Shown here: one piece after another, positions 46,126-64,000 of the stretch
Layout of the letters: the number at the start of each line of letters is the position of its first letter
Numbering within the stretch: the stretch's first letter is position 1
Assembly: GCF_003323715.1 (NCBI RefSeq)
Contig: NZ_QOIN01000034.1
Span: 1-64,000 of the forward strand
Source of the DNA: Streptomyces diacarni
Lineage (GTDB): Bacteria; Actinomycetota; Actinomycetes; Streptomycetales; Streptomycetaceae
Direction: 5' to 3'
Length of the DNA: 64,000 nucleotides
The notes under the pieces: model-generated
Seen by the model: only the letters and a program-made list of their open reading frames with translations
The model's database searches: none
Told to the model about the DNA's origin: nothing
Translations under genes and position numbers: made by a program

Positions 46126-47319
46126 TCACCCCTTCACGCACACGATCTGCTTCAGCTTGGCGACGACCTCCACCAGATCGCGCTGCTGGTCGATGACGCG
46201 CTCGATCGGCTTGTACGCGCCGGGGATCTCGTCCACCACCCCCGCGTCCTTGCGGCACTCGACGCCCCGCGTCTGCTCCGCCAGATCCTGCTCGGAGAAC
46301 CGGCGCTTGGCCGCGTTCCTGCTCATGCGCCGCCCTGCACCGTGCGAGGCCGAGTTGAACGACGCCGCGTTCCCCAGGCCCTTGACGATGTAGGAGCCGG
46401 TGCCCATGGAACCGGGGATGATCCCGTACTCGCCGCCGCCCGCACGGATGGCGCCCTTGCGGGTGACGAGGAGATCCATACCGTCGTAGCGCTCCTCCGC
46501 CACGTAGTTGTGGTGGCAGGAGAGCGTCTCGTCGAAGACCGGCTTCGCCTTCTTGAACTCCTTGCGCACGACGTCCTTGAGCAGACCCATCATCAGCGCA
46601 CGGTTGTGCTTGGCGTACTCCTGCGCCCAGAACAGGTCGTGCCGGTAGGCCCCCATCTGCGGGGTGTCAGCGACGAAGACCGCCAGGTCGCGGTCGACCA
46701 GACCCTGGTTGTGCGGCAGCTTCTGTGCCACACCGATGTGGAAGTCCGCGAGCTCCTTGCCGATGTTGCGCGAACCGGAGTGCAGCATCAGCCACACCTG
46801 GTCCTCGGTGTCGAGACACACCTCGATGAAGTGGTTGCCCCCGCCGAGCGTGCCCATCTGCTTGGTGGCGCGCTCCTGCCGGAACCGTACGGACTCGGCC
46901 ACGCCGCCGAAGCGTGCCCAAAAGTCCTCCCACCCGTTGGTCGGCAGCCCGTGGACGCGGCCAGGATCCACAGGATCGTCGTGCATCCCGCGGCCGACCG
47001 GAATGGCCTGCTCGACCCGCGAGCGCAGCCGCGAGAGGTCACCGGGCAGGTCGTTGGCCGTCAGCGACGTCCGCACGGCGGACATGCCGCACCCGATGTC
47101 GACACCCACCGCCGCCGGGCAGACCGCCCCGTGCATCGCGATGACCGACCCGACCGTGGCGCCCTTCCCGTAGTGCACGTCCGGCATCACCGCGAGCCCC
47201 TTGATCCAGGGCAGGGTCGCGACGTTCTGCAACTGCCGCAGGGCCGCGTCCTCCACGGACGCCGGGTCCGCCCACATCCGGATCGGCACCCGCGCCCCGG
47301 GCATCTCGACGTGACTCAT
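46126..47319 (-). CDS. rtcB: RtcB-family RNA ligase
   Basis: The 397-residue protein starts at ATG 47319. It has the RtcB signatures: MPDVHYGKGATVGSVIAMHG, AAVGVDIGCGMSAVRTSL (metal-binding Cys), LGGGNHFIEVCLDTEDQVWL (His ligands and NHFIE), MLHSGSRNIGKELADFHI, SCHHNYVAEERYDGMDLLVT, and SHGAGRRMSRNAAKRRFSEQ (guanylylated His region). RtcB joins 2',3'-cyclic-phosphate and 5'-hydroxyl RNA ends with GTP and manganese, in tRNA splicing or RNA repair. No archease gene is adjacent. The length is typical of the bacterial short subtype. Confidence 0.92.
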   Translation of the reverse strand: MSHVEMPGARVPIRMWADPASVEDAALRQLQNVATLPWIKGLAVMPDVHYGKGATVGSVIAMHGAVCPAAVGVDIGCGMSAVRTSLTANDLPGDLSRLRSRVEQAIPVGRGMHDDPVDPGRVHGLPTNGWEDFWARFGGVAESVRFRQERATKQMGTLGGGNHFIEVCLDTEDQVWLMLHSGSRNIGKELADFHIGVAQKLPHNQGLVDRDLAVFVADTPQMGAYRHDLFWAQEYAKHNRALMMGLLKDVVRKEFKKAKPVFDETLSCHHNYVAEERYDGMDLLVTRKGAIRAGGGEYGIIPGSMGTGSYIVKGLGNAASFNSASHGAGRRMSRNAAKRRFSEQDLAEQTRGVECRKDAGVVDEIPGAYKPIERVIDQQRDLVEVVAKLKQIVCVKG

Positions 47320-47625
47320 GACCGACCAACTCCCCCGAAACCGCTCGAAGACTTCCAGCGCGACGTCCGCGCAAACGAGCAAACACACGCCTGCACGACG
47401 CGTGAACTGCCAGGCGCCGCCGCACTCCCGCGGCTCGGCGCTCACCCATTGTGCGCTCCGGTGCACCCGCGACGGCAAAGGATTTTCGACCCCGGGTGGG
47501 CGGTTGGCGGCACGGATACCGGCGGACCGGAACCGTTGCCTTGTGCAGGGGTGTCTCTCTAGGTTGAAACGGATCTTCTTGGTACGGATCTTCTAGGTAA
47601 TGACAGAGTGACGGGGGAGGCAACA
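47320..47625. other. divergent intergenic region with 15-bp tandem repeat
   Basis: No gene is evident in this 306-bp region between rtcB and the rightward secretion-type operon. At 47569-47598 two 15-bp copies, ACGGATCTTCTTGGT and ACGGATCTTCTAGGT, lie side by side, 28 bases before the operon's first start codon. They are a candidate activator or repressor site. Confidence 0.55.
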
Positions 47626-48090: not shown

Positions 48091-50250
48091 ATGGACATAC
48101 CCACAGTGGGGCAGCTGCGTGATCTGCGGCTGGGCAAGCTCAACACCGCGATCACCGACTGGACGGAGACGGTCGAACGGCTCCGCACCCTCGCCACCGG
48201 TGAGGGAGGCAAGGGCGGCGGCGCGGGCTCGAAAGGCGCCGGGGTGACCGCCATCGGGCTCAACTCCGCCGCGGCCAAGGCCACCTGGACCGGCAAGAAC
48301 GCCACCGTCACCAGGGGGTTCGTCACCAAGACCGCCACCCAGTTCTCCGAACTGGTCGATGAGGCCGAAGACGTCCTCGGGATCCTCAAGAGCGCCCGCA
48401 AAGCCTTCAAACAGCACAAGGAAGACCTGGAGACCGTCGTCACCGACGTCGCCAAGGACAACGTCTACGTCAACGACAACAACACGGTGAAGGGCGTGGT
48501 GCCCTCCGGCGCCGCCGCGGGCGACGCGGACATCAAACCCCCCACCCAGGCAGAGCTCGACGCGGCCGAGAAGAGAGTCAAGAGAGTGCTGTGGGAGGCC
48601 GGCGAGAGCAACCGCATCGCGGCCCGCGAACTGCGCGCCATGGCCAAACGCAAGCACGACTTCTCCGGCTCCGCGGCCAACTCCCTCAAGAAGGCCGACC
48701 GCAGGCAGGGCAAGGTGGACGCCCAGTACTGGACGAAGCGCCTCAAAGACGGCGACGTCAAGGTGTGGGAGCTGGACGAGAAGGAACTCAAGAAGTTCAA
48801 CGAGACCCTCCGCGACCAGCGCGACAACCCCGCCTTCACCGAGAACTTCGCCACCGGCATGGGCGCCGAGGGCACCCTCCAGTTCTGGCGCGACCTGGCC
48901 GACCCCGGCCACGGCGACACCCCCACGGGCGAGCGCGCCAAGCTGCTCGACCACATCCAGGGCAACCTGAGCATGACCCTGGCCAACGCCACCCGCGTCG
49001 ACAGCCCCGCGATGGCCAAGTGGGAGAACGACATCATCAACGCCGGCACCAAGCAGTTCGGCCACGAGGGCATCATGGCCAAGCCCTACGGCTTCCAGAT
49101 CATGAGCAGCCTCATGGGCAAGGGCAAGTTCGACGACGGCTTCCTCGACAAGTACGGCGACGCCGTCTACAAGTTCGAACGCAGCAAGCCGGACGCTCCC
49201 TCCGCATGGGGACTCGTCGGCATGGGCACCGACCTCGACCCCGGCGACAAGTCCACCGGGGCCGACCCGATGACCGGCTACCTCAAGGCGCTCAGCCACA
49301 ACCCCGACGCGGCGACCCACGTCTTCAACGACCCCGACAAGGCCGACTACTTCCTCAAGGACCAGGACCACGGCGGCCGCGTCTGGTTCGACGAGGACCA
49401 GCCCGACAGCACGGGCCCCGACGACGGCGTCAAGCTGCCCTCCCGCGAGGCCCTCGGCGACGCGCTGTTCGCCGCGGGCAGCGGCATGAACCCCGACGAC
49501 CCGGCCGCCGAGTACGTCAAGCACACCACCGCGCACAACGACGTGTTCGACAACGCCCTGGAGCGGCTGGCCGGCCAGAAGGACGACATGCCGGCCGAAC
49601 TCCGCGACGACATGGCCAAACTCATCGGCAACCACGGCACGGACGCACACCTGACCATGGGCGGCTCGAACGAGGAGCAGACGCTCGATCGGAGCGACCT
49701 TCTGGAGGTCTCCAAGCAGGTCTCCCGGGACCCGCAGAGCTACCAGATCCTCAACGACGGCATGAACGCCGCGATGGTCCGCGACATCCACGCGGAGACG
49801 AAGGACCCCGAGGACAGCCTCGACCGCTCGGGCCGCACCGTCGGATTCCTGGAAGAGGCCCGCTACCAGGCGATCGGCGACAAGAAGGCCGCCGATCTCA
49901 AGGACGCGGGCTGGGGCCCCACGGGCACCGGCGGCTACCTGGTCTTCGCCGAGGCGGCATCGTTCCTGCCCGGCGGCGGGCACGCCGCCAACGCGGCGTT
50001 CGGCCTCAGCAAGATGCTCGTCGAGGACGAGACCGCCCGCATCGAGGCGGGCGTCTCGGGCGACAACAAGGACGTCGCCGAGCTTCAGCAGCAGCGGTTG
50101 CAGGGGCTCAAGGACGAGTGGTACCGCACGAACTCCGACTGGGCGCGCCAGAACGACGGATACTCCGAGGACCACGGATCCTGGTCCAAGATCGACGCTG
50201 CGGCGAACGACGGCAAGGCCAATGCCCGGGAGGATTCGGGAGACCAGTGA
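48091..50250 (+). CDS. large WXG-like, DUF6571-type putative type VII effector
   Basis: The 719-residue protein starts at ATG 48091. The N-terminal 130 residues form a helical hairpin with a WTG (WXG) turn at about residues 66-68 (AKATWTGKNATVTRGF), as in WXG/LXG proteins. The central part, VDAQYWTKRLKDGDVKVWEL, MGAEGTLQFWRDLADPGHGD and LSHNPDAATHVFNDPDKADY, matches the DUF6571-like family of Streptomyces. The C-terminus is charged and acidic, with no signal peptide. It is probably exported by a type VII-like route. No nuclease or toxin motif is obvious. It overlaps the next lipoprotein gene. Confidence 0.7.
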   Translation: MDIPTVGQLRDLRLGKLNTAITDWTETVERLRTLATGEGGKGGGAGSKGAGVTAIGLNSAAAKATWTGKNATVTRGFVTKTATQFSELVDEAEDVLGILKSARKAFKQHKEDLETVVTDVAKDNVYVNDNNTVKGVVPSGAAAGDADIKPPTQAELDAAEKRVKRVLWEAGESNRIAARELRAMAKRKHDFSGSAANSLKKADRRQGKVDAQYWTKRLKDGDVKVWELDEKELKKFNETLRDQRDNPAFTENFATGMGAEGTLQFWRDLADPGHGDTPTGERAKLLDHIQGNLSMTLANATRVDSPAMAKWENDIINAGTKQFGHEGIMAKPYGFQIMSSLMGKGKFDDGFLDKYGDAVYKFERSKPDAPSAWGLVGMGTDLDPGDKSTGADPMTGYLKALSHNPDAATHVFNDPDKADYFLKDQDHGGRVWFDEDQPDSTGPDDGVKLPSREALGDALFAAGSGMNPDDPAAEYVKHTTAHNDVFDNALERLAGQKDDMPAELRDDMAKLIGNHGTDAHLTMGGSNEEQTLDRSDLLEVSKQVSRDPQSYQILNDGMNAAMVRDIHAETKDPEDSLDRSGRTVGFLEEARYQAIGDKKAADLKDAGWGPTGTGGYLVFAEAASFLPGGGHAANAAFGLSKMLVEDETARIEAGVSGDNKDVAELQQQRLQGLKDEWYRTNSDWARQNDGYSEDHGSWSKIDAAANDGKANAREDSGDQ

Positions 50251-53473: not shown

Positions 53474-53879
53474 TCTGTTGTGCGGGCTTTGTGGAGGAGT
53501 CCGCCACTTTTCCGCGCGCTGTCCGCGCCGCCTGTGCCATCGCCAGGTAATCCCTCAACTTATGGCCACAAGCTCTGTCATGACCTACTAGGGGCGTTTT
53601 GCCCGGTTTCTGTGGTCTTCGTGTCGCGAATCACACCGGCACTTCCCCGAGTGGCGCCACGGAGCGCCTCCGGGCGTCAAGGGCCCTACGTGCAGGGCCA
53701 TTTCGAAGAAATCGGTGCACGACCCCATTTCACGCTGAGAAAATGATCCACAGCGCAGCGTGGAGAAATTCGTTGATCAATTACTAGGCTTTTTAGTAAT
53801 TCCCGCTGATCGTCTTGTTCAAAACGAATTCGCTGTGTTTCCGTGTCCTCGCTTCCGACAACCACGCCCGTCGGGAGAT
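53474..53879 (+). promoter_or_regulatory. long promoter region of the riboswitch gene, with AT-rich dyad
   Basis: No gene is visible in about 400 bp ahead of the c-di-AMP riboswitch. The segment 53740-53840 is strikingly AT-rich for this genome. It contains a perfect 8-bp inverted repeat, AATTACTA (53779-53786) and TAGTAATT (53794-53801), with a 7-base loop. The transcription start of the riboswitch RNA should lie near its 3' edge. Long regulated promoter regions are known for Streptomyces cell-wall lytic genes. Confidence 0.5.
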
Positions 53880-54078
53880 CCACTACCGGGGCGCCGAATC
53901 CTGCCGCCCGGCCGGTGGAATGCTCACCAGACCCTTTTCGGCAGGAGCGGGGGACCCAGGTAAGTGCCGTGCCGCACACCGCGGCCCGGCTTGGGGTGAA
54001 GTCAGCTCCGCGTACTCGGTGCGCGGAAATGGCCGGGCAACTCCAGCCCGAATCCGACAGCTCACCTCGCAGGCGCCA
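53880..54078 (+). ncRNA. c-di-AMP riboswitch (ydaO/yuaA type)
   Basis: The leader of the LysM gene contains the conserved ydaO blocks in order: GGGGCGCCGAATCC near 53888, GCGGGGGACCCAGG near 53947, GGCTTGGGGTGAAG near 53988, GCCGGGCAACTCC near 54031, and CCCGAATCCGACAGCTCACC with TCGCAGGCG up to about 54075. These form the two-fold pseudosymmetric c-di-AMP pockets. The RNA ends about 18 bases before the start codon. In Streptomyces this riboswitch shuts off cell-wall hydrolase genes when c-di-AMP is high. Ends are approximate to about 10 bases. Confidence 0.92.
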
Positions 54079-54093
54079 GGAGAGGACACTCCC

Positions 54094-54882
54094 ATGTTCC
54101 GTGACCTTCATGGCCGCGTGCGTCACACCTTCCACACCCGTCGCCTTTCCCGGATTTCTCTCGTGCTCGCCGCGAGCGGTGCGGGAATTGCGGCTCCGCT
54201 GCTGACAGCGGGCAGCGCCAGTGCCGCGCCGGCTCCGGCCGCCGCGCACGCCCAGGCGCCTTCCGCCGCGACCCAGCAGGTGAAGAGCGAGCAGCAGTCC
54301 GAGGCCTCGCAGGAGTACACCGTCGCGGGCGGCGACACCCTGTACCGGATCGCCACCAGCCACGACGTCGAGGGCGGCTGGAAGGCCGTCTACGACGCCA
54401 ACCGGCAGACCATCGGCGACGACCCGAACCTGATCCGCCCCGGCCAGGAGCTGAGCCTGTCCGCGTCCGCCGACGCGAAGCAGGACGAGAGCGGGGGCGA
54501 GGAGACGCAGGGCGCCGGCCAGACCGCCGCCCAGCCCTCCGGTGAGGTCCACACGACCCAGTCGGACAACCTGGACGGCTGGATCAACGAGGCGCTGGGT
54601 GTCATGAAGCAGCACGGCATCCCGGGCACCTACGAGGGCATTCACCGCAACATCATGCGGGAGTCCGGCGGCAACCCGGACATCGCCAACAACTGGGACA
54701 TCAACGCCCAGAACGGCACGCCGTCGATCGGCCTGCTCCAGGTCATCCAGCCCACGTTCGACGCCTACCACGTCGAGGGCACCGCCAACGACCTGCGCGA
54801 CCCGGTCGCCAACATCGTCGCCGCGTGCAACTACGCGGCCGACCAGTACGGTTCCATCGACAACGTCAACGGCCCGTACTGA
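54094..54882 (+). CDS. secreted LysM/transglycosylase cell-wall hydrolase
   Basis: The 262-residue protein starts at ATG 54094. A signal peptide ends about residue 45 (GSASAAPAPA). A LysM domain lies at about 75-120 (YTVAGGDTLYRIATSHDVEG, NLIRPGQELSL). An Ala/Gln-rich linker leads to a soluble lytic transglycosylase domain at about 160-262: HRNIMRESGGNPDIANNWDI (catalytic Glu in MRESGG), NGTPSIGLLQVIQPTFDAYH and DPVANIVAACNYAADQYGSI. Rpf/Swl-like hydrolases of this layout act in spore germination and growth. The c-di-AMP riboswitch directly precedes it. Confidence 0.93.
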   Translation: MFRDLHGRVRHTFHTRRLSRISLVLAASGAGIAAPLLTAGSASAAPAPAAAHAQAPSAATQQVKSEQQSEASQEYTVAGGDTLYRIATSHDVEGGWKAVYDANRQTIGDDPNLIRPGQELSLSASADAKQDESGGEETQGAGQTAAQPSGEVHTTQSDNLDGWINEALGVMKQHGIPGTYEGIHRNIMRESGGNPDIANNWDINAQNGTPSIGLLQVIQPTFDAYHVEGTANDLRDPVANIVAACNYAADQYGSIDNVNGPY

Positions 54883-55015: not shown

Positions 55016-56950
55016 TCACGTGGCCTCGGCCGCCGTCTGAGCGGCCTCGGCCGCCGGTGGGTCGAATCCGATCCTGATCCTGGCCGGGACGGCCCTGTCC
55101 GCCTCGGTCCCCCACCTGATCGTCACCGTGGTGCCCGCGACCGAGACCTCGGGCGCCGGGGTCTCGGCGGTGCCTACGCCCAGCGACACGAGCGCCACAC
55201 ACACCCGGGCGCCCGTCACCTCGCCCTCCAGTGCCGGGACCCGCACCCAGCGCGCGTACGCCGTGCCGTGCGGAGCGGGCAGCGGCTCCACCGTCTCCAG
55301 CCCGTACGCGGGCCGCAGCGCCGAGGCGACCTCGTCCCCGGCCGCCCAGCCCGTCAGCCGCAGGCGCGTACCGGCGGGGGCGCCCAGGACGCGGTGTGCC
55401 CGCACCTCCCAGCTGCCGCGTACCACCGTCACGCTCTCCACCCGCAGCCCCGGCACCCGGGGCACGTCCGCGGGGAAGGCGGGGCGGTGCCAGGACGCCG
55501 CCCAGCCCCAGCCGCCGTCCGCCGCCGAGCCCGCCCCCAGCGGATGGATGCGTCTGCGGGCGCTCCACCGCCCGGGCCTGGAGGGGAGGGCGAGCGCCAG
55601 GTGGTTGTCGGGCGGGTTGTCGCGCGCGGTCGGCCCGGTCCTGGTCGAGTACGCGAACCGCGCGTAGAGCGGATCCTCCCGCTCGTGCGCCTCCCCCTCG
55701 TCCGGGTGCACGTTGTCGCTGCCGTGGTTGTGCAGCCGCACGAGTCCGTCGCCGCCGGTCGACTGGATGAGGAAGCCCGGCGCCGCCACCGCCAGCGCGC
55801 GGTCGGGGCCCTCGCTCGGCGCGGCCTCCTCGACGGCCGTCCACAGCGGGTCCTCGGGCGGTACCAGCAGCGCGACGAAGCACTTCGACGCCCAGTAGGG
55901 GGAGGCCGGGCCCGAGTAGCGCTGCACGGTGGGGGCGTGCGCGCCGTGCCAGCCGAGCGACAGCAGCCCGTCCGCGTCGAGCGCCCCCCGGTCCAGGAAG
56001 TAGCGCAGTGTTCCGCTCAGCAGGCGGCGCGAGACGCCGGGCGCCAGTGGCGTGTGACCGGTCAGCGCGCCGAGGCCGACGGCGGTCCCCGCCGCGAACC
56101 GGTAGGTGAGGGAGCGGCCGAAGTGGACAGGGGCGCCGTCGCCGCCGAACAGCAGCGCGAAGCTCGCCAGGTGCGCGCGCAGCCGTGCCCCGTACCGTGC
56201 CGCAAGGTCCTTCTCGCCCGCCAGGTGCGCGTGCAGCAGGGGGTACAGGTGCAGGGCCCAGCCGTTGTAGTGGTCGAAGGCGCGCCCGTCGCCGTCGGCG
56301 TACCACCCCTCGCCCCGCCACCAGCCCTCCAGCAGTTCCAGCCCCCGCTCGGTCGCCGTCCGCGTCTCGGCGTCCCCGCGCCCGGCCGCGTCGAGGAACC
56401 CGGCCACCGACAGCGGGAAGAGGTACCAGTTGTTCGGCGCGGGGGAGCGCCGCAGCGCGCCCCGCAGCCAGGCCTCGGTGCTTTCCCGTACGGGTTCCTC
56501 CAGCCGGTCCCACAGCCACGGTTTGGTCAGCCGCAGCGCCAGTGCCACCGACGCCGCCTCCACCATCGGCTGCCCGGCGACCGTGTGGTCCAGCACCTCG
56601 GGCCACGACTCGGCGTCCGCGCGCCCCGGGGTGCGGGTCCCGGCGCGCAACCCGTCGGCGTACCGCTCCAGCAGGTTCGCCGGGTCGCGGCCACCCGCGC
56701 CCGCGACGCGGAACGCGGCTGCCAGGAACGTGCGCGCGTACCCTTCGAGACCGTCCGAACGCGTCCCCGACACGGAGGCGCGCCCCGGCAGGTGGAGCAG
56801 CGCGCCGCGCGGTGTGGCCCACTGCCGGGCGGCCCGCAGCAGGGCGTCTGCCACCGCTTCCCAGTGGGCGCGGGTGTAGCCGGTGTACGGGCTCAGCGCA
56901 CGGTCGTGTGCCGGCATGGTCAGCGGCTGCGTGCGGCCCGCCCCGCTCAC
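55016..56950 (-). CDS. DUF2264-domain protein (probable glycoside hydrolase)
   Basis: The 644-residue protein starts at GTG 56950, overlapping the stop of the upstream dehydrogenase gene. The N-terminal 370 residues have the alpha/alpha-toroid features of DUF2264: FLAAAFRVAGAGGRDPANLL, WPEVLDHTVAGQPMVEAASV, PNNWYLFPLSVAGFLDAAGR, and HYNGWALHLYPLLHAHLAG. SLGWHGAHAPTVQRYSGPAS and PYWASKCFVALLVPPEDPLW follow, then a beta-rich C-terminus. DUF2264 proteins are related to glycoside hydrolases (CAZy GH154, as I recall). The gene is last in an operon with a sugar importer and probably acts on the imported oligosaccharide. No signal peptide is seen, so it should be cytoplasmic. Confidence 0.85.
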   Translation of the reverse strand: MSGAGRTQPLTMPAHDRALSPYTGYTRAHWEAVADALLRAARQWATPRGALLHLPGRASVSGTRSDGLEGYARTFLAAAFRVAGAGGRDPANLLERYADGLRAGTRTPGRADAESWPEVLDHTVAGQPMVEAASVALALRLTKPWLWDRLEEPVRESTEAWLRGALRRSPAPNNWYLFPLSVAGFLDAAGRGDAETRTATERGLELLEGWWRGEGWYADGDGRAFDHYNGWALHLYPLLHAHLAGEKDLAARYGARLRAHLASFALLFGGDGAPVHFGRSLTYRFAAGTAVGLGALTGHTPLAPGVSRRLLSGTLRYFLDRGALDADGLLSLGWHGAHAPTVQRYSGPASPYWASKCFVALLVPPEDPLWTAVEEAAPSEGPDRALAVAAPGFLIQSTGGDGLVRLHNHGSDNVHPDEGEAHEREDPLYARFAYSTRTGPTARDNPPDNHLALALPSRPGRWSARRRIHPLGAGSAADGGWGWAASWHRPAFPADVPRVPGLRVESVTVVRGSWEVRAHRVLGAPAGTRLRLTGWAAGDEVASALRPAYGLETVEPLPAPHGTAYARWVRVPALEGEVTGARVCVALVSLGVGTAETPAPEVSVAGTTVTIRWGTEADRAVPARIRIGFDPPAAEAAQTAAEAT

Positions 56951-58065
56951 GCCAGCAACTCCCGCTGCTCGGGCGGCACCGCGTGGGCGAAGCCCTCGCC
57001 GGCCGCCCAGCGGTGCACCTCCCGGACGGCCGACTCGGCCAGCCGGTCGAGTTCGTTGCCCTGCGAGCCGGCCAGGTGCGGGGTGAGCAGCACGTTCTCG
57101 CACTCCCACAGCGGATGTCCCGCGGGCAGCACCTCGGGCTCCGTGACGTCCAGTACCGCGTGCAGGCGGCCCGCCAGCACCTCGTCGGTCAGCGCCTCCT
57201 GGTCGATCACCGCGCCACGCGCCGTGTTGACGAGCGTCCCGCCGTCTCTGAGGAGGGCCAGCAGTTCACGGCTCACCAGGCCGCGGGTCGCCGGCAGGAG
57301 CGGGGTGTGGACACTGACCGTGTCGGCCGCGGCGAACAGGCCGGGCAGCTCCGTCTTGGTCGCGCCCAGCGCCGCCGCCTCCGCCTCGGTGACGTACGGG
57401 TCGTGGAGCAGCACCCGCAGTTCGTGCGCGCGCAGCAGCGCGAGCACCCGGCGTCCGACGAGCGACGCGCTCACGATGCCCACGGTGCGCCGGTAGTTGC
57501 CCAGCGTCGGATCGGCCGAGAGCCACTCCCGGCGGCCTCGTCGCGCGGCGTACGCGCGGGCCGTGTGCAGGACGCGCTTGTTCGCCAGCAGGATCATGGC
57601 CAGCGTGTACTCGGCGACGGGTGCGGCGTTCGCCGCGGCCGCCGAGGAGACCTCGATGCCCCGGTCCCAGCACTCCTGTGTGACGTGTCCCCTGACGCTG
57701 CCCGCCGTGTGCGCCACGGCACGCAGCCGCGGTGCGTGGGCGAGGGCCGCCGCGTCCAGGGGCGGGCAGCCCCAGCCGGTGACCAGCAGTTCGGTGGTGG
57801 CGAGGGTTTCCCTGGCCGTCGCCGTGGTGAAGTCCGTGAGGAGGGTGGGGGCCAGGTCGACGGCCTCGGCGAGGCGGCGCCTGGCCGCGGGCTTGAGTAC
57901 CGCGTCCGCGGCCTCGCGGCCCATGGCGAGGGCCGCGGCGGGTCGGGTGGCACGGCCGGGACCCGCGGTGCGGGCCCGGCCTTCGGCGGGGGCGGGCTCC
58001 GCGGTGGGGCCGGTGGCGGGTGCGGGTCCGGTGGCGCGGGCGGGGGCGGTGCCGGGGTCGGGCAT
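56947..58065 (-). CDS. D-isomer 2-hydroxyacid dehydrogenase family protein
   Basis: The 372-residue protein starts at ATG 58065 with a 45-residue Pro/Ala/Thr-rich tail. The body has AHTAGSVRGHVTQECWDRGI, SSAAAANAAPVAEYTLAMIL, the NAD-binding VGIVSASLVGRRVLALLRAH (GxxSxxxGRR in place of GxGxxG), VHTPLLPATRGLVSRELLAL, LVNTARGAVIDQEALTDEVL (catalytic Arg), DVTEPEVLPAGHPLWECENV (Glu) and LTPHLAGSQGNE (His). It should reduce or oxidise a 2-hydroxyacid, perhaps from an uronate. The NAD motif departs from the usual glycine pattern (GIVSASLVG), a point worth checking. Confidence 0.85.
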   Translation of the reverse strand: MPDPGTAPARATGPAPATGPTAEPAPAEGRARTAGPGRATRPAAALAMGREAADAVLKPAARRRLAEAVDLAPTLLTDFTTATARETLATTELLVTGWGCPPLDAAALAHAPRLRAVAHTAGSVRGHVTQECWDRGIEVSSAAAANAAPVAEYTLAMILLANKRVLHTARAYAARRGRREWLSADPTLGNYRRTVGIVSASLVGRRVLALLRAHELRVLLHDPYVTEAEAAALGATKTELPGLFAAADTVSVHTPLLPATRGLVSRELLALLRDGGTLVNTARGAVIDQEALTDEVLAGRLHAVLDVTEPEVLPAGHPLWECENVLLTPHLAGSQGNELDRLAESAVREVHRWAAGEGFAHAVPPEQRELLA

Positions 58066-58115
58066 GGGGCTCCTGGCGTCGGGTGGGTGGTCGCTTCGGT
58101 GGGCCGGGGGTGGTC

Positions 58116-59063
58116 TCACTTCACGCTGCCCGCCGTCAGCCCGGACCTCCAGTGGCGCTGGAGAAGGACGAAGGCGGCGATCAGCGGCAGGACCGCCAGG
58201 AGCGAGCCGGAGATGACGACGGGGTAGTAGTCGGGCGTCACCACGGCGGCACTGTTCCATACGTACAGTCCGAGGCTGACCGGGAACAGCTTCTGGTCGG
58301 ACAACATCACCATGGGCAGGAAGAAGTTGTTCCAGATGGCCGTGAGCTGGAACAGGAAGACCGTCACCAGTCCGGGCCCCAGCATCCGCAGGGCCACCCG
58401 GAAGTAGGAGGCCAACTCTCCCGCGCCGTCCACCCGCGCGGCCTCCAGTACCTCGTCGGGCACGTACCCCTGGCTGAAAACCCGCCCCAGGTACACGCCG
58501 AAGGGGTTGAAGAGGACGGGGATGAACACCGACCAGAAGGTGTTGACCAACCCCACCTCGGAGGCCATCAGGTACAGCGGGAGGGCCAGCACCGTGGGCG
58601 GCACCATCACGCCCGCCAGGACGAGTCCGAACAGCTTCTCCTTGCCGCGGAAGCGGTACTTGTCGAAGGCGTACCCGCAGGCGACGCTGATCATCGTGGA
58701 GACGGCCGCGCCGGCCACCGCGTACAGCAGGCTGTTGAGGTACCAGCGGCCGTAGATGCCGTCCTCCATGGCGAAGAGGGCCGCGAGGTTGTCGGCGAAG
58801 GAGAAGTCGCCGAGGGAGAGCAGATCGCTGCGGAAGAGCGCGCCGCGGTTCTTGGCGGAGGCGAGCAGCAGCCACAGGACGGGCAGCAGCGTGTAGAGGA
58901 CGGAGAGTCCGACGATCGCGTTGACGGCGACCCGGCCCAGCAGCCTGGGCCCGGCCGACGCCGCCGTGTGCGGGGCGCGCGGGGCGCGGCGCGTACGCCG
59001 GGGCCGGGACCCGCGCGAGGCGCCGGAGCCCAGCGGTGCGCGCGGGGTGGTGGGGGCGCTCAT
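58116..59063 (-). CDS. carbohydrate ABC transporter permease (MalG-type)
   Basis: The 315-residue protein starts at ATG 59063, overlapping the stop of the other permease (ATGA). After a basic 40-residue tail it has six membrane helices. The EAA loop that docks on the ATPase is EAARVDGAGELASYFRVALR with MLGPGL following (about residues 205-230). It works with the MalF-type permease and the solute-binding protein in CUT1-type sugar import. No ATPase gene is in the operon; the general MsiK-type ATPase of Streptomyces would supply energy. Confidence 0.9.
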   Translation of the reverse strand: MSAPTTPRAPLGSGASRGSRPRRTRRAPRAPHTAASAGPRLLGRVAVNAIVGLSVLYTLLPVLWLLLASAKNRGALFRSDLLSLGDFSFADNLAALFAMEDGIYGRWYLNSLLYAVAGAAVSTMISVACGYAFDKYRFRGKEKLFGLVLAGVMVPPTVLALPLYLMASEVGLVNTFWSVFIPVLFNPFGVYLGRVFSQGYVPDEVLEAARVDGAGELASYFRVALRMLGPGLVTVFLFQLTAIWNNFFLPMVMLSDQKLFPVSLGLYVWNSAAVVTPDYYPVVISGSLLAVLPLIAAFVLLQRHWRSGLTAGSVK

Positions 59064-60061
59064 CCAAGACCCTCCTCGCCGGGGCCGCCGGCGCGGCTGT
59101 CGCGGTTGCTCCACCGGCTCAGCCCGTAGGACAGGGCGACGGTGACGGCGAGCAGGACCACCGAGGCCGCCGCCGCGAGGCCGTAGTTGTTGCGGGTGAA
59201 GGCGGCGTCGTAGATGTACATGTTCGGCGTGTAGCGGCCACCGACCACCGGCGTGGCCTGACTGAGCAGCATCGGCTCGGTGAACAGCTGGAGGGACCAG
59301 ATGAGCGTGAACATCACGACCATCACGCCGGAGCTGCGCACCAGCGGCACTTTGACGCGCAGCGCGGTGCGCACGGGCCCTGCGCCGTCCACGAGCGCCG
59401 CCTCCGTCAACTCGCGCGGCACGGCCTGGAGCGCGGCGTAGAAGAGGACGACGTTGTAGCCGAGGTTGCTCCACATCGCGATGTTGACGAGGGAGGGCAG
59501 CACGGTGTCCACGCCGAGCAGGTCGAGGGAGATGCCGCCCTTGCCGAGCAGTTCGACGACCGGGCTGAGTCCCGGCGTGTACAGGTACAGCCAGATGACG
59601 GCGGCGATGATGCCGGGTACGGCGTGCGGCAGGAACAGCGACAGCTGCGCGGTGCGCCGCAGCCTGGCCGCTCCCGAGTCGAGTAGCAGGGCCAACAGGA
59701 GCGCCAGCGCCACCATCGACGGAACGTAGATGAGGCAGTAGAGCGCCGTGGTGCCCAGTCCCGCCAGGAAGGTGGGGTCGGTGAGGACCGCCTCGTAGCT
59801 GCGCAGCCCCGCGAAGACGGTGCGTTCGGGGCCGAAGCCGAGCCCGGGCTGGTCGTCGCTGAAGAAGCTCAGATAGACGGCGCCGCCCACGGGGACGAGG
59901 AAGACGAGGACCAGCAGCACGAAGAACGGCGCCATCAGGGCGGCGCACGCCCCTCTCGCGCGCCGCCGCGCGGTTCTGCGCGTCCGCGCGGTACGGCCCT
60001 GGGACGTCGCCGCGGGCGCGAGGGTGCCCGCGGGGGCGGCGGGCGTCGGTGCGGTACTCAT
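59060..60061 (-). CDS. carbohydrate ABC transporter permease (MalF-type)
   Basis: The 333-residue protein starts at ATG 60061, overlapping the stop of the binding-protein gene. An Arg-rich tail precedes six to seven membrane helices. The EAA loop is LTEAALVDGAGPVRTALRVK with VPLV following (about residues 225-250). It forms a heterodimeric channel with the MalG-type protein. Overlapping start/stop codons with both neighbours indicate translational coupling. Confidence 0.9.
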   Translation of the reverse strand: MSTAPTPAAPAGTLAPAATSQGRTARTRRTARRRARGACAALMAPFFVLLVLVFLVPVGGAVYLSFFSDDQPGLGFGPERTVFAGLRSYEAVLTDPTFLAGLGTTALYCLIYVPSMVALALLLALLLDSGAARLRRTAQLSLFLPHAVPGIIAAVIWLYLYTPGLSPVVELLGKGGISLDLLGVDTVLPSLVNIAMWSNLGYNVVLFYAALQAVPRELTEAALVDGAGPVRTALRVKVPLVRSSGVMVVMFTLIWSLQLFTEPMLLSQATPVVGGRYTPNMYIYDAAFTRNNYGLAAAASVVLLAVTVALSYGLSRWSNRDSRAGGPGEEGLG

Positions 60062-61425
60062 CGCGCTCCCTCCCGCGCGTCGAGCCCGAGGGACTTCAGG
60101 TCCGGCATCGTCGAGCGCTGCCCTTCTTCCAGGGCGGCGAGGACGGTGCCCTCGCCGTCGCCCGCGCGGGCCAGCCCGGTCTGCACGGTCTTGAGGGTGG
60201 CCGTCATCCGCGGGCCCCACGTCCAGCGCCGCGAGATGTGCGCCGCCTCGCGCCGGAAGAGCGCGTAGATGTCCTGTCCGCCGAAGTAGCTGGTGTCCAT
60301 CGCCTCCCGGGCGACGGGCACAAGACCGCCGACGGCCGGGTACTGGGTGCTGATCCCGCTGGAGAGCCGGGCCCTGAGCGAGTCGGGGCTGGAGACCTGC
60401 CACTCGATGAAGTCCATGGCCGCCTTCGGGTGGGCGCTGTCCTTGGTGACGGCGAAGGTGGAGCCGCCCATCACGCCCAGGCGCGGGTGGCGGGGGTCCC
60501 ACTGGGGGAGCGGGGCCACGCCCCACTTGCCCTTCTGGCCCGGCTGGGCCGACATCATCCCGCCCGCGTCCCAGGCCGCGGTCACCTTGCCGAAGACCTC
60601 ACCGCGGCCGACCTGCGCGGTGCCGGCCTGCGTGTCGACGGGGCCCAGGAAGACCAGGTCCCGGTCGATGAGCCGCTGCCAGTAGGCTGCCACGTGGCGG
60701 GTCGGCCCGTCGGTCATGGACACGGTCCAGGTGGCGTCGCGGGTGTCGAACCAGCGGCCGCCCGCCTGCCAGGCGAGTCCGGCCAGGTGGTGGCCGCCGT
60801 CGGTGGGGAAGGTGGCGATCCGCGATCCTGGCGCCGCCCGCTTGACCTCGCGGGCGGCTTCCTCGAACTCGTCCCAGGTGCGGGGCACCTCGATGCCGTG
60901 CTTGTCGAACAGGTCGCGGCGGTAGAGGAAGACCATCGGTTCGACGTCCAGCGGCACGCTGAAGGTGCGGCCCTCGAACGTGGTGAGGTCGAGCGCCTGC
61001 GGCAGCAGTTTCTCGCGCAGCCGCGTGTCGATCAGGCCGGTGAGGTCGCGGGCCACGCCGTCGATGGCGAAGCCGGGCACCTGGGGGTACTCGATCGTCG
61101 CGACGTCGGGCGCGTTGCCCGCGCGGGCGGCGTTGCTCAGCTTCGCGTATCCGCCCTGTTGTCCGGAGGGGACCTGTTCGAAGTCGACGTGGACGCGGTT
61201 CTGGCTGCTGTTGTAGGCGTCCACGACCTCCTGGCTGCCGCGCAGGGCCGACCAGAACGTCAGGTGGACGGGCGCCCCGGCGCGCTCCGCCACCGCGCCG
61301 GCGCCGCCGCCCGAGCAGGCGGCGGTCAGCAGCAGCGGCAGCGCGGCGAGCGCCGTCAGGAGGGAACGGGCGGTGCGGAGGGTGCGGGTAGTGCGGGAGT
61401 GCCGCGGAGAACGTCGGCCGTGCAC
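60058..61425 (-). CDS. extracellular sugar-binding lipoprotein of an ABC importer
   Basis: The 455-residue protein starts at ATG 61425. The signal peptide ends in a lipobox (LPLLLTAAC, Cys near 37). The mature protein is a family-1 solute-binding protein: VHLTFWSALRGSQEVVDAYN, VDFEQVPSGQQGGYAKLSNA, VPLDVEPMVFLYRRDLFDKH, GIEVPRTWDEFEEAAREV and LGVMGGSTFAVTKDSAHPKA. VEPMVFLYRRDLFDK is typical of CUT1 binding proteins for oligosaccharides. It is the first gene of the operon. A 13-bp operator-like sequence at 61514 lies 88 bases upstream. Confidence 0.92.
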   Translation of the reverse strand: MHGRRSPRHSRTTRTLRTARSLLTALAALPLLLTAACSGGGAGAVAERAGAPVHLTFWSALRGSQEVVDAYNSSQNRVHVDFEQVPSGQQGGYAKLSNAARAGNAPDVATIEYPQVPGFAIDGVARDLTGLIDTRLREKLLPQALDLTTFEGRTFSVPLDVEPMVFLYRRDLFDKHGIEVPRTWDEFEEAAREVKRAAPGSRIATFPTDGGHHLAGLAWQAGGRWFDTRDATWTVSMTDGPTRHVAAYWQRLIDRDLVFLGPVDTQAGTAQVGRGEVFGKVTAAWDAGGMMSAQPGQKGKWGVAPLPQWDPRHPRLGVMGGSTFAVTKDSAHPKAAMDFIEWQVSSPDSLRARLSSGISTQYPAVGGLVPVAREAMDTSYFGGQDIYALFRREAAHISRRWTWGPRMTATLKTVQTGLARAGDGEGTVLAALEEGQRSTMPDLKSLGLDAREGAR

Positions 61426-61513
61426 GGTGGGTGCCTCCTTCGGGAGAGGAGGGGAACACCGGCATCCTGATCGCCCGAACGAATGAGGTCAATGGAGCGA
61501 TCAGAGGAAAGGA

Positions 61514-61526
61514 AAACGGTCAAACG
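61514..61526 (+). promoter_or_regulatory. candidate operator of the sugar operon
   Basis: AAACGGTCAAACG lies 88 bases upstream of the binding-protein start, in promoter range. The same 13 bases occur inverted at 62725-62737, just ahead of the adjacent regulator gene. It contains two AAACG half-sites separated by GTC. A site shared by a regulator gene and its neighbouring transport operon is a likely operator. Confidence 0.65.
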
Positions 61527-61579
61527 ATCGAGTGATGGCGGGTGTTGACGCTGCCAGGGCGCGGGGGAGCCGTGCCCGC

Positions 61580-62710
61580 TCAGTCCGCCGGGGCCCGCAC
61601 GGCCGAACCGCGGACCTTCAACTCGGGCAGCAGCTCCACCCGGCGCACCGCCTCGGGCGCCGCGCCCGTCGGCCGCCCCACCCGGTGCAGCAGCAGCTCG
61701 GCCGCCGCCCGTCCGATCGCCTCCGTCGGCGGGGCCACCGCCGTCAGCGGCGGGCTGCCCAGCGCCGCCACCACGTCGTCGTAGGCCACCACCGAACAGT
61801 CCTCGGGCACCCGCACGCCGCCCTCGCGCAACTGCTGCACCAGCATCAGCGCGTCCACGTCCGCGTGCAGCACCGCGGCGGTCGCGCCGTGCTCGCGCAG
61901 CACGGCGCGCAGATCCACCAGCGACGCCTCGTGCTCGTCCGTCCCCGGCCTGCGCGTCGGGTCGGGCGCCGAGGCGGCCGCGGAGCCCGCCGTGAGCACC
62001 ACGGCCCACTCCTCGACCTGTGGCCGCTGGGAGGCGATCTGCGCGAAGGCGGCGCGCAGCGTGCGGGCGGTCGGGCTGTCGTCCCGCGCCGCCAGCACGA
62101 TCCGCCGGTGCCCCAGCGAGACCAGGTGGTCGAGCGCCAGGTGCGCGCCGTACCAGTGGTCGCTGCACACCGAGTCGTGCGCGTGCAACGGGGAGCCCGG
62201 TGCGGGCCTGCGCTCCATCAGCACGGCGGGTACGGGCAGTTCGGCCAGCCACTGGGCGTCGAGCGCGGCCCCTTCCGCGCCGCGCCAGCGCGGCGAGACC
62301 AGCAGGCCGCGAGCGCCCTGCTCCAACGCCTGGCGGGCCATGGCCTCTTCGGCGCCGGGATGGTGCCGGGCGATGTGCAGGGCCATCCGCACCCCGGCCT
62401 CCTCCAGCGCGGCACGGGCGCCGCGTACCGCCTCGAAGAGGTAGGAGTGGTGCTCGGGCACGATCAGCCCGACCGCCGGAGCCGAGGCGTCCACCGGCGG
62501 GGCCCCGCGCTGCTCGGGAACGGAGGACAGCGACCGCGCCACCCCGTGCCCCCGCTGTACCTCGCCCCGGCGCGCCAGCTCCTCCACGTCGCGCCGCAGG
62601 GTGACGACGGAGACACCGAGTTCCTCGGCCAGCGCGGTGACCCGCACCTGGCCCCGTGCCCGTACCGCTTCCAGCACCCTCTCCCGCCTGGCGGCGGCCC
62701 CCTCGCGCAC
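61580..62710 (-). CDS. DeoR-HTH/LacI-sensor hybrid regulator
   Basis: The 376-residue protein starts at GTG 62710, eight bases after AAAGGG. The first 60 residues are a DeoR-type winged helix: RRERVLEAVRARGQVRVTAL and AEELGVSVVTLRRDVEELAR. The rest is a LacI/periplasmic-binding-protein-like sensor: VGLIVPEHHSYLFEAVRGAR, HLALDHLVSLGHRRIVLAAR, VVAYDDVVAALGSPPLTAVA, and PPTEAIGRAAAELLLHRVGR. Such hybrids regulate sugar operons in Streptomyces. It should sense the imported sugar and control the operon downstream. A matching operator lies 15 bases ahead of its own start, so autoregulation is likely. Confidence 0.88.
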   Translation of the reverse strand: MREGAAARRERVLEAVRARGQVRVTALAEELGVSVVTLRRDVEELARRGEVQRGHGVARSLSSVPEQRGAPPVDASAPAVGLIVPEHHSYLFEAVRGARAALEEAGVRMALHIARHHPGAEEAMARQALEQGARGLLVSPRWRGAEGAALDAQWLAELPVPAVLMERRPAPGSPLHAHDSVCSDHWYGAHLALDHLVSLGHRRIVLAARDDSPTARTLRAAFAQIASQRPQVEEWAVVLTAGSAAASAPDPTRRPGTDEHEASLVDLRAVLREHGATAAVLHADVDALMLVQQLREGGVRVPEDCSVVAYDDVVAALGSPPLTAVAPPTEAIGRAAAELLLHRVGRPTGAAPEAVRRVELLPELKVRGSAVRAPAD

Positions 62711-62724
62711 GGCGGTAACCCTTT

Positions 62725-62737
62725 CGTTTGACCGTTT
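62725..62737 (-). promoter_or_regulatory. candidate operator of the regulator gene
   Basis: CGTTTGACCGTTT, the exact reverse complement of the sequence at 61514-61526, lies 15 bases upstream of the regulator's start. Read along the gene it is AAACGGTCAAACG, immediately before the ribosome site. Binding here would block transcription or clearance, giving autorepression. Confidence 0.65.
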
Positions 62738-62857
62738 CTCCCTACGATACGGTCGCCCCGCGCCGGCGTCCCGGAAACCGGCGTCCCGAGAACCGGCGCC
62801 GCGGAAACCGGCGTCGCGCACCAGAAGCCGGGCGCCCCCGGGGTAGGTGTGTCAGAC

Positions 62858-62893: not shown

Positions 62894-64000
62894 TCAGTAC
62901 CTCTGGCGCCGCACCAGGTCGTGGAAGGGCCCCGCGGTGTCGGCGAGCAGGGCGGCAGGGGCGCCCTCCTGCACCACGCGCCCCTCGGACATGACCAGGA
63001 CGCGGTCGGCGTCCATGACGGTGGACAGCCTGTGGGCGATCACCACCCGGGTGGCCCGCAGGGCACGCGTGGACTCGGCCACCACCCGCTGGGTCTCGTT
63101 GTCCAGCGCGCTGGTCGCCTCGTCGAAGAAGAGGACGCGGGGACGGCGCACCAGGGCCTGAGCGATCATCAAGCGCTGCCGCTGGCCGCCGGAGACGGTG
63201 CCGCCGCCGTCGGACAGCACGGTGTGCAGGCCCATCGGCATGGCCTTGATGTCGTCGGCCACCCCCGCCATCCGTGCCGCCTCCCACACCTCCTCCAGCG
63301 GAAACGTCTCGGCGCCGCAGATGCACTCCAGGATGGAGCCCGCGTGCGGCTGCGCGTTCTGCAGCACGACCCCGCACTGGCGCCGCACCGCCGCCTGGTC
63401 GAGGGCGGCGAGGTCCTGCCCGTCGAAGCGGACCTCGCCCGAGGTGGGCCTCTCGAAGCCGATCAGCATGCGCAGCAGCGTCGACTTGCCGCAGCCGCTG
63501 GGCCCGACGACGGCGACGAACTCGCCGGGCCGCACCCGCAGGGTGACCCCGTCCAGCGCCAGCGGCCCGTCCTCGGTGTAGCGGAAGGCCACCTCGCGGG
63601 CCTCGATCAACCCGCTCAGCTCTCCCGGCCGCACGCTGCCGCCGCGTACCTCGGGCGCCTCCCGGAGCACAGGCTTGAGCTGTTCGTACATCGGCAGCGT
63701 GGCGGCGGCAGAGATCAGCGAGTTGGTCAGCTGCGTGACGGAGGTGAGCATCATCGTCATGGCCGTGGTGAAGGTGAGGAACCCACTGGGGCTCAGGGCG
63801 CCCCGGGCAGGGCCCGCCAGCAGCACGAACAGCAGCAGCATCGCCAGCGGCAGGTAGACCGCGTTGACGACCGTGCTGAGGTTGCGGACGCGGCCCACCC
63901 GCCGCTGGAGCTCGCGGCTGCGCGCGAAGTCGGTGGCCCAGGCCGCGTACGCGAACGACTCGGCCGCCGCGACGCGCAGCTTCGGCAGCCCGCGCAGCGT
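62894..64000 (-). CDS. NHLP-type bacteriocin-export ABC transporter, permease/ATPase (5' end off window)
   Basis: The gene reads leftward and enters from beyond 64000; 368 C-terminal residues are visible. The membrane part shows RGLPKLRVAAAESFAYAAWA, ELQRRVGRVRNLSTVVNAVY and helices to about 63700. The ATPase has Walker A GPSGCGKST, the Q-loop region VVLQNAQPHAGSILECICGA, DDIKAMPMGLHTVLSDGGGT, signature VSGGQRQRL, Walker B VLFFDEATSALD and H-loop VIAHRLST. The IxAMPMGxHTVxSxGGGTxSGGQ block is typical of NHLM/NHLP export ATPases (TIGR03797-like), which secrete RiPPs with nitrile-hydratase-like leaders. An N-terminal peptidase is not expected in this subunit. Confidence 0.85.
   Translation of the reverse strand, partial: TLRGLPKLRVAAAESFAYAAWATDFARSRELQRRVGRVRNLSTVVNAVYLPLAMLLLFVLLAGPARGALSPSGFLTFTTAMTMMLTSVTQLTNSLISAAATLPMYEQLKPVLREAPEVRGGSVRPGELSGLIEAREVAFRYTEDGPLALDGVTLRVRPGEFVAVVGPSGCGKSTLLRMLIGFERPTSGEVRFDGQDLAALDQAAVRRQCGVVLQNAQPHAGSILECICGAETFPLEEVWEAARMAGVADDIKAMPMGLHTVLSDGGGTVSGGQRQRLMIAQALVRRPRVLFFDEATSALDNETQRVVAESTRALRATRVVIAHRLSTVMDADRVLVMSEGRVVQEGAPAALLADTAGPFHDLVRRQRY

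Follow-up and report, generated by a model that had tools for sequence, protein, structure and literature searches.

What does the exporter gene cut off at the right edge of this stretch of the Streptomyces diacarni genome transport, and does it mark the border of a RiPP cluster, as the initial annotation proposed? The window, by which we mean the whole 64,000-base stretch analysed (G000:C3:1-64000), belongs to a contig of 236,210 bases in a genome of 7.66 Mb. We addressed the question from the sequence of the complete locus, from its counterparts in related genomes, and from homologues of its peptide encoded elsewhere in those genomes.

An NHLP-type exporter at the window edge

On the reverse strand, the reading frame at 62894-64000 is open and continues past the right edge of the window; it is the only part of a four-gene unit that lies inside, and it encodes the C-terminal 368 of the 951 codons of a protein that we call ABC2. 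The best family for this 368-residue fragment is the NHLP bacteriocin export permease/ATPase family TIGR03797 (548 bits, E = 3.5e-164; second-best family, 248 bits), with a score below the curated cut-off of 709, as is to be expected of a fragment. Since the window is part of a longer contig, the whole gene could be read: complete ABC2 (C3:62894-65749, reverse strand) scores 857 bits and is the sole match above the cut-off in the genome. Its ATPase motifs are intact. The edge gene is thus confirmed as an NHLP-type export ATPase.

The two partner genes expected nearby, a peptidase-ABC gene and an HlyD-like gene, were found immediately to the right of the window on the same strand. ABC1 (C3:65839-68127, 762 residues) carries a C39 peptidase domain (PF03412, E = 8e-34) and scores 985 bits against TIGR03796 (cut-off 853). 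ABC1 matches both ComA and the bacteriocin transporter 4ry2 across nearly its full length, the 4ry2 match covering residues 55-759; we take 4ry2 to be PCAT1. The TIGR03796 and TIGR03797 proteins both exceed their cut-offs and are encoded 89 bases apart, as in an NHLP-type triad. The HlyD-like protein (C3:68124-68930, 268 residues) falls just under the TIGR03794 cut-off (152.4 bits against 156.2, E = 1.7e-44), with the middle of the model missing: about 150 of its 421 positions are skipped. Among the 20 loci in which HlyD was grouped, 17 encode a protein of 268-269 residues, and an HlyD of this kind would suit a one-membrane cell.

A small peptide gene with a double-glycine leader

A precursor gene lies 215 bases upstream of HlyD, again on the reverse strand, at C3:69146-69340 (64 codons) or, from an upstream start, to 69358 (70 codons). 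We prefer the inner ATG because it is preceded by an AAGGGAA stretch, as the ATG of relatives is by a similar one. The leader comprises 21 residues, is of the double-glycine type and ends in ELDAVSGG. The core, ILNEAVSEAGATVGGVEGLVGNTVNGVGTDGLPNVGVTLGAQS, is 43 residues long and devoid of Cys, Lys and Arg; taken by itself, it shows no significant G-x3-G spacing (p = 0.29) and a marginal helical moment (p = 0.048). The absence of Cys leads us to reject a lanthipeptide.

The precursor had been anticipated with a nitrile-hydratase- or Nif11-like leader. The leader peptide gene is there, and its leader matches neither family: scanning the precursor and 30 relatives against NCBIfam, assumed to contain both models, gave no match to TIGR03793 (nitrile hydratase) or TIGR03798 (Nif11), and a Pfam scan of the precursor matched nothing. 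Matches of precursor family members to curated families are weak and scattered. The precursor of this locus weakly matches the VP1 pheromone model (21 bits against a cut-off of 85), in a stretch that spans residues 11-43 of 70 and covers only the end of the leader and the first 16 residues of the core.

Between the precursor and HlyD genes, a hairpin is located at C3:69000-69031 (reverse strand). The 215-base stretch around it folds better than all 200 shuffled versions (z = -5.1), and hairpins with related CCCGG-type arms occupy the same place in 21 of the 23 loci compared below.

No modification enzyme recognised beside the unit

A modification enzyme beside the exporter, also predicted at the outset, was not borne out. 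None was recognised among the 24 neighbouring proteins scanned with Pfam (46.1-89.2 kb of the contig), six of which match no family, and none is conserved in the 22 related loci; genes as far as 102 kb were additionally read by eye. Within 20 kb of the exporter there is accordingly a precursor gene and, as far as could be seen, no modification gene. The exporter, the peptidase and the leader peptide of the proposed cluster are therefore present, and its description as a RiPP cluster is unsupported; if "RiPP" is taken strictly to mean a modified peptide, it is unproven for this locus.

A conserved four-gene unit in Streptomyces

The N-terminal 390 residues of ABC2 match in 146 of 199 sampled Streptomyces genomes; three of these matches are weak (G038, G057 and G188) and were not taken for this exporter, leaving 143. 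With weak matches included, the same query finds 92 of 150 genomes (10 of 17 genera) in a family-wide sample, and 28 of 296 in a class-wide sample, where the strong matches (E <1e-60) are all from Streptomyces. We compared 23 loci in detail, namely the present one, those of S. reniochalinae (HlyD 95% identical) and S. lycii, and 20 from the 145 other matching genomes, taken both at the top of the ranking and further down.

Precursor, HlyD, ABC1 and ABC2 occur in this order at all 23 loci, with the precursor immediately upstream of HlyD (gap 74-241 bases), and no other gene is common to all. The most frequent extra neighbours encode an alpha-lytic-type secreted protease (9 loci, two of them scanned) and a SpoIIE/GAF phosphatase (7 of 23, one scanned); a Ppx/GppA-type gene is near the unit in 3 of 23 (one scanned). 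No gene intervenes between precursor and HlyD and no extra gene is found in all 23 loci, from which we conclude that there is no conserved immunity gene; nor is any sensor or receptor gene common to the 23. As a locus, that of S. diacarni is an unremarkable example of a unit widespread in Streptomyces.

A profile built from the 23 linked precursors (profile A2) was run against the 199 genomes and matches 144 of them. Exporter and precursor occur together in 142 genomes and are both absent from 54; one genome (G120) has the exporter only and two have the precursor only, counts that come from related rather than independent species, as do those for the upstream element below. In one of the two precursor-only genomes (G152) the precursor is followed by HlyD near a contig end, and in the other (G001, 79% complete) the contig ends about 200 bases from the copy, so that the downstream side is missing.

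Unlinked precursors with the same leader

Many relatives encode more than one such peptide. Two or more profile matches, up to five, are present in 64 genomes, all of them among the 143 with the exporter, and extra copies in at most one of the 56 others, a comparison that assumes one match per exporter genome to be the linked copy (Fisher p = 9e-11, a guide only because the species are related). The S. diacarni genome itself contains a single precursor.

We fetched 20 extra copies out of at least 25 unlinked second matches. Their leaders are of the type found in the linked precursors (MNSAPQVxTxEISDAELDxVSGG, with variants), their cores are different and fall into several subfamilies, and none of them lies near an HlyD or C39 exporter gene. 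Within 12 kb around each of them, only L107 has an ABC1/ABC2-like protein, 4 kb off, and the similarity is in the ATPase/permease part and not in the C39 part. No gene besides the peptide is common to all 20 neighbourhoods. Hairpins downstream of these genes are irregular, with none of at least seven pairs found within 130 bases in 7 of the 20 cases. Two settings recur, with genes named by reading the sequences: the peptide lies between MFS-like and phosphoglycerate-mutase-like genes in L093, L102 and L108, and beside sigma-factor-like and methyltransferase-like genes in L103, L104, L109 and L110.

An element shared by linked and unlinked genes

The 12-position element GTGCTTTGATCC is matched at 11 or 12 positions upstream of 18 of the 23 linked precursors, and 16 of the 20 unlinked ones have an upstream match at 10 positions or more, compared with an average of about 8 of 12 for shuffled sequences. 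The exact word CGTGCTTTGATCC has 112 sites in the 199 genomes (23 of them in the first set of 41), against a chance expectation of about 24 in 1.7 Gb (Markov-1 model; the genome total is approximate). Of these sites, 103 are upstream of a family peptide and nine precede none. The 103 comprise 101 on the same strand, 68-140 bases before a precursor detected by the profile, and two more before precursors found by reading the sites (L205 and L206); an automatic call at L204 was spurious and was left out of the count. Direct reading of 30 such loci gave a family peptide in 27. As a control, the reversed word has no site (Markov-1 expectation 9.5). The CTAG step is rare in such DNA, and this control was set aside because the reversed word holds that step.

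The S. diacarni genome has no CGTGCTTTGATCC site, and the best place for the element at its locus (C3:69496-69507, reverse strand) reaches 8 of 12 positions, no better than shuffles, so that the element is unrecognisable here and would have decayed. With one precursor and no recognisable element in its own genome, the multi-peptide picture rests on the relatives of S. diacarni. The next gene upstream, a BNR-repeat sialidase-like gene that is divergent from the precursor (C3:69490-70788, forward strand), has a listed start region that overlaps this best place. The letters of CGTGCTTTGATCC gave a sole match in the open-licence literature, which concerns a human gene.

Composition and evolution of the cores

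Cores are 43-52 residues long. The linked ones are rich in Gly, with Thr and Ser making up about a fifth; all 23 are without Cys, Lys and Arg and have a net charge of -1 to -4. Cys is also absent from the 20 unlinked cores examined, and is present in the cores of the two further unlinked precursors, L205 and L206, unlike the other 43. Helical amphipathicity at p<0.05 was found for 17 of the 23 linked and 3 of the 20 unlinked cores, as judged by a per-sequence test, which we used because z-scores for spacing and helical moment over 23 homologues are inflated by relatedness. A structure predicted for the S. lycii precursor (L053) from its single sequence had a mean pLDDT of 59 and was unusable.

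For the peptide gene in nine linked loci, pN/pS is 0.31 in the leader and 0.49 in the core; in the same loci ABC1 gives 0.18 and HlyD 0.41. In one unlinked subfamily (17 copies; 20 loci were tried, two were not recovered and one was too different) the leader has a value of 0.70 and the core one of 1.49, the latter not claimed as positive selection because G+C bias holds the synonymous sites and the sequences are few. Cores that change faster than leaders, as in this subfamily, would be easier to reconcile with an arms race than with a structural role.

Relation to known systems

According to PMC6629963, a gene for a 77-residue, Cys-free, hydrophobic peptide, SCO0753, lies upstream of SCO0754-0756 (HlyD and two ABC proteins) in S. 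coelicolor, in an order conserved in many Streptomyces, and SCO0757 is reported there as an exopolyphosphatase. The same paper describes SCO0753 as the most strongly overexpressed gene of a strain that carries an activating SCO5282 allele and has dispersed mycelium (log2 induction 6.3, against 4.25-4.4 for SCO0754-0756), the genes SCO0753-0756 being almost silent in the null mutant. The S. diacarni unit likewise has a Cys-free small peptide gene followed by HlyD-ABC-ABC, four of the linked precursors compared here have 77 codons if read from an upstream start, and the Ppx/GppA-type gene near three of the loci recalls SCO0757. Gene order, peptide length, lack of Cys and this gene, rather than the SCO0753-0756 sequence, indicate that the locus is of the SCO0753-0756 kind, the version at the window differing in its diverged core and in having no recognisable upstream element. 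SCO0753 is counted in a bacteriocin cluster in PMC5733086, SCO0756 is mentioned in PMC5882110 and PMC6414726, and no tested function or product for SCO0753-0756 was seen in PMC6629963 or PMC5733086.

RiPP precursors were the genomic context in which the NHLP export triad was defined (PMC2887384). The same three exporter families (TIGR03796, TIGR03797 and, just under its cut-off, TIGR03794) are combined here in one operon, and that paper too describes genomes with more than one precursor, some of them away from the cluster. The present unit differs from those systems in its short double-glycine leader, in an HlyD without the middle of TIGR03794, and in that no TOMM or LanM enzyme was seen nearby. 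As a C39 peptidase-ABC exporter, ABC1 resembles the exporters of class II bacteriocins and competence peptides (4ry2 and ComA), from which the unit is set apart by a second ABC protein without peptidase, the lack of a conserved immunity gene and an anionic core.

Proposed role and alternatives

Genes, domains, their conservation, the shared upstream element and co-occurrence are the observed basis for the following proposal. We consider it slightly more probable than not that the four genes form a self-contained operon for the production and export of a short unmodified peptide, and that the exporter of relatives also serves unlinked, co-regulated peptides. The precursor would be made with its 21-residue leader, the C39 domain of ABC1 would cut after Gly-Gly, and ABC1, ABC2 and the short HlyD would together carry the 43-residue core out of the cell, probably without chemical modification. 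The hairpin after the precursor gene may hold transporter transcripts at a lower level than those of the precursor. Unlinked peptides with the same leader are, in many relatives, most likely served by this exporter as well; export in trans is suggested by the leaders, the shared element and co-occurrence.

The peptide would most likely be used at the producer's own envelope or mycelial surface and not for killing. What speaks for such a role, the least secure part of the reading, is the wide presence of the unit, its anionic cores, the association with mycelial dispersion and the lack of any immunity gene conserved beside it; the fast change of cores in unlinked copies leaves room for antagonism or kin signalling.

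Extended to the genus, the proposal becomes a secreted-peptide regulon of Streptomyces, to which we give even chances in its full form: an NHLP-like exporter, a linked anionic, Gly-rich core forming an amphipathic helix, as many as four or even more further peptides encoded at unlinked places, the leader being common to all and the element to most, unmodified export in trans, and fast-changing unlinked cores. New here are (i) the extra unlinked peptides with the same leader, (ii) the element common to linked and unlinked genes, and (iii) the occurrence of the extra copies almost only with the exporter; unlinked homologues of SCO0753 were not found among the titles and abstracts listed from the open-licence literature. 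PMC6629963 and PMC5733086 name such a locus a bacteriocin or lantibiotic-like cluster, yet defining features are missing. Should the scattered peptides indeed have the exporter and a promoter element in common, what is now just a frequent locus would turn into a defined regulon whose cleavage rule can be tested. It would also be tied to the clumping of mycelium, which is a practical problem in Streptomyces fermentations. Being scattered and apparently co-regulated, the peptides are a reason to follow this family further.

A class II-type bacteriocin operon, whose unmodified core, alone or with an unlinked partner, would insert into competitors' membranes, is in our view unlikely. The exporter type and the double-glycine leader are bacteriocin-like, the linked cores are Gly-rich and most of them are amphipathic as helices, the cores of one unlinked subfamily diverge fast, and weak matches among 30 family members include TIGR03949 (class IIb cerein 7B/lactobin A; four members, best E = 0.00067), NF038167 (CTB bacteriocin; three) and PF10439 (class IIc; two, best E = 0.0042). 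Typical bacteriocins are cationic, however, and every linked core is anionic; the gene-free precursor-HlyD gap and the absence of any additional gene shared by all loci argue against a dedicated immunity gene, and presence in 143 of 199 genomes looks like a core trait.

We regard as improbable that the core is a pheromone signalling to kin and controlling aggregation or development. In its favour are the weak VP1 match, the SpoIIE/GAF phosphatase gene near the unit in 7 of 23 loci, and the response of the S. coelicolor operon to a two-component system that alters mycelial clumping (PMC6629963). Against it, the VP1 match stops early in the core, a sensor or receptor gene shared by all loci is lacking, and cores of 43-52 residues are long for a pheromone.

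Very doubtful, finally, is the idea of a true RiPP modified by an enzyme from another part of the genome, for which one may cite the definition of the triad beside RiPP precursors, cyanobacterial lanM genes reported far from the other genes (PMC3140520), the Thr and Ser content, the six neighbours without a Pfam family, and weak matches to PF04604 (type-A lantibiotic; two of 30 members) and to the GRASP target, TigB and plantaricin C models (one each), but against which stand the lack of any enzyme conserved beside all linked or all unlinked genes and the Cys-free cores (all but L205 and L206), which speak against lanthionines and Cys-derived thiazoles.

Other features of the neighbourhood

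Upstream of the unit, the contig between about 72.8 and 75.8 kb holds no convincing gene by the GC3 rule. Downstream of ABC2, the window contains a sugar-uptake operon (55016-62821, reverse strand) that encodes a DUF2264 protein, a D-2-hydroxyacid dehydrogenase, two ABC permeases, a solute-binding protein and a regulator in which a DeoR-type HTH is joined to a LacI-type ligand domain. Farther left, a 719-residue protein without a Pfam match is encoded at 48091-50250 (forward strand) near a gene for an RtcB-type RNA ligase (46126-47478, reverse strand), and a protein with LysM and transglycosylase (SLT) domains at 53815-54882 (forward strand).
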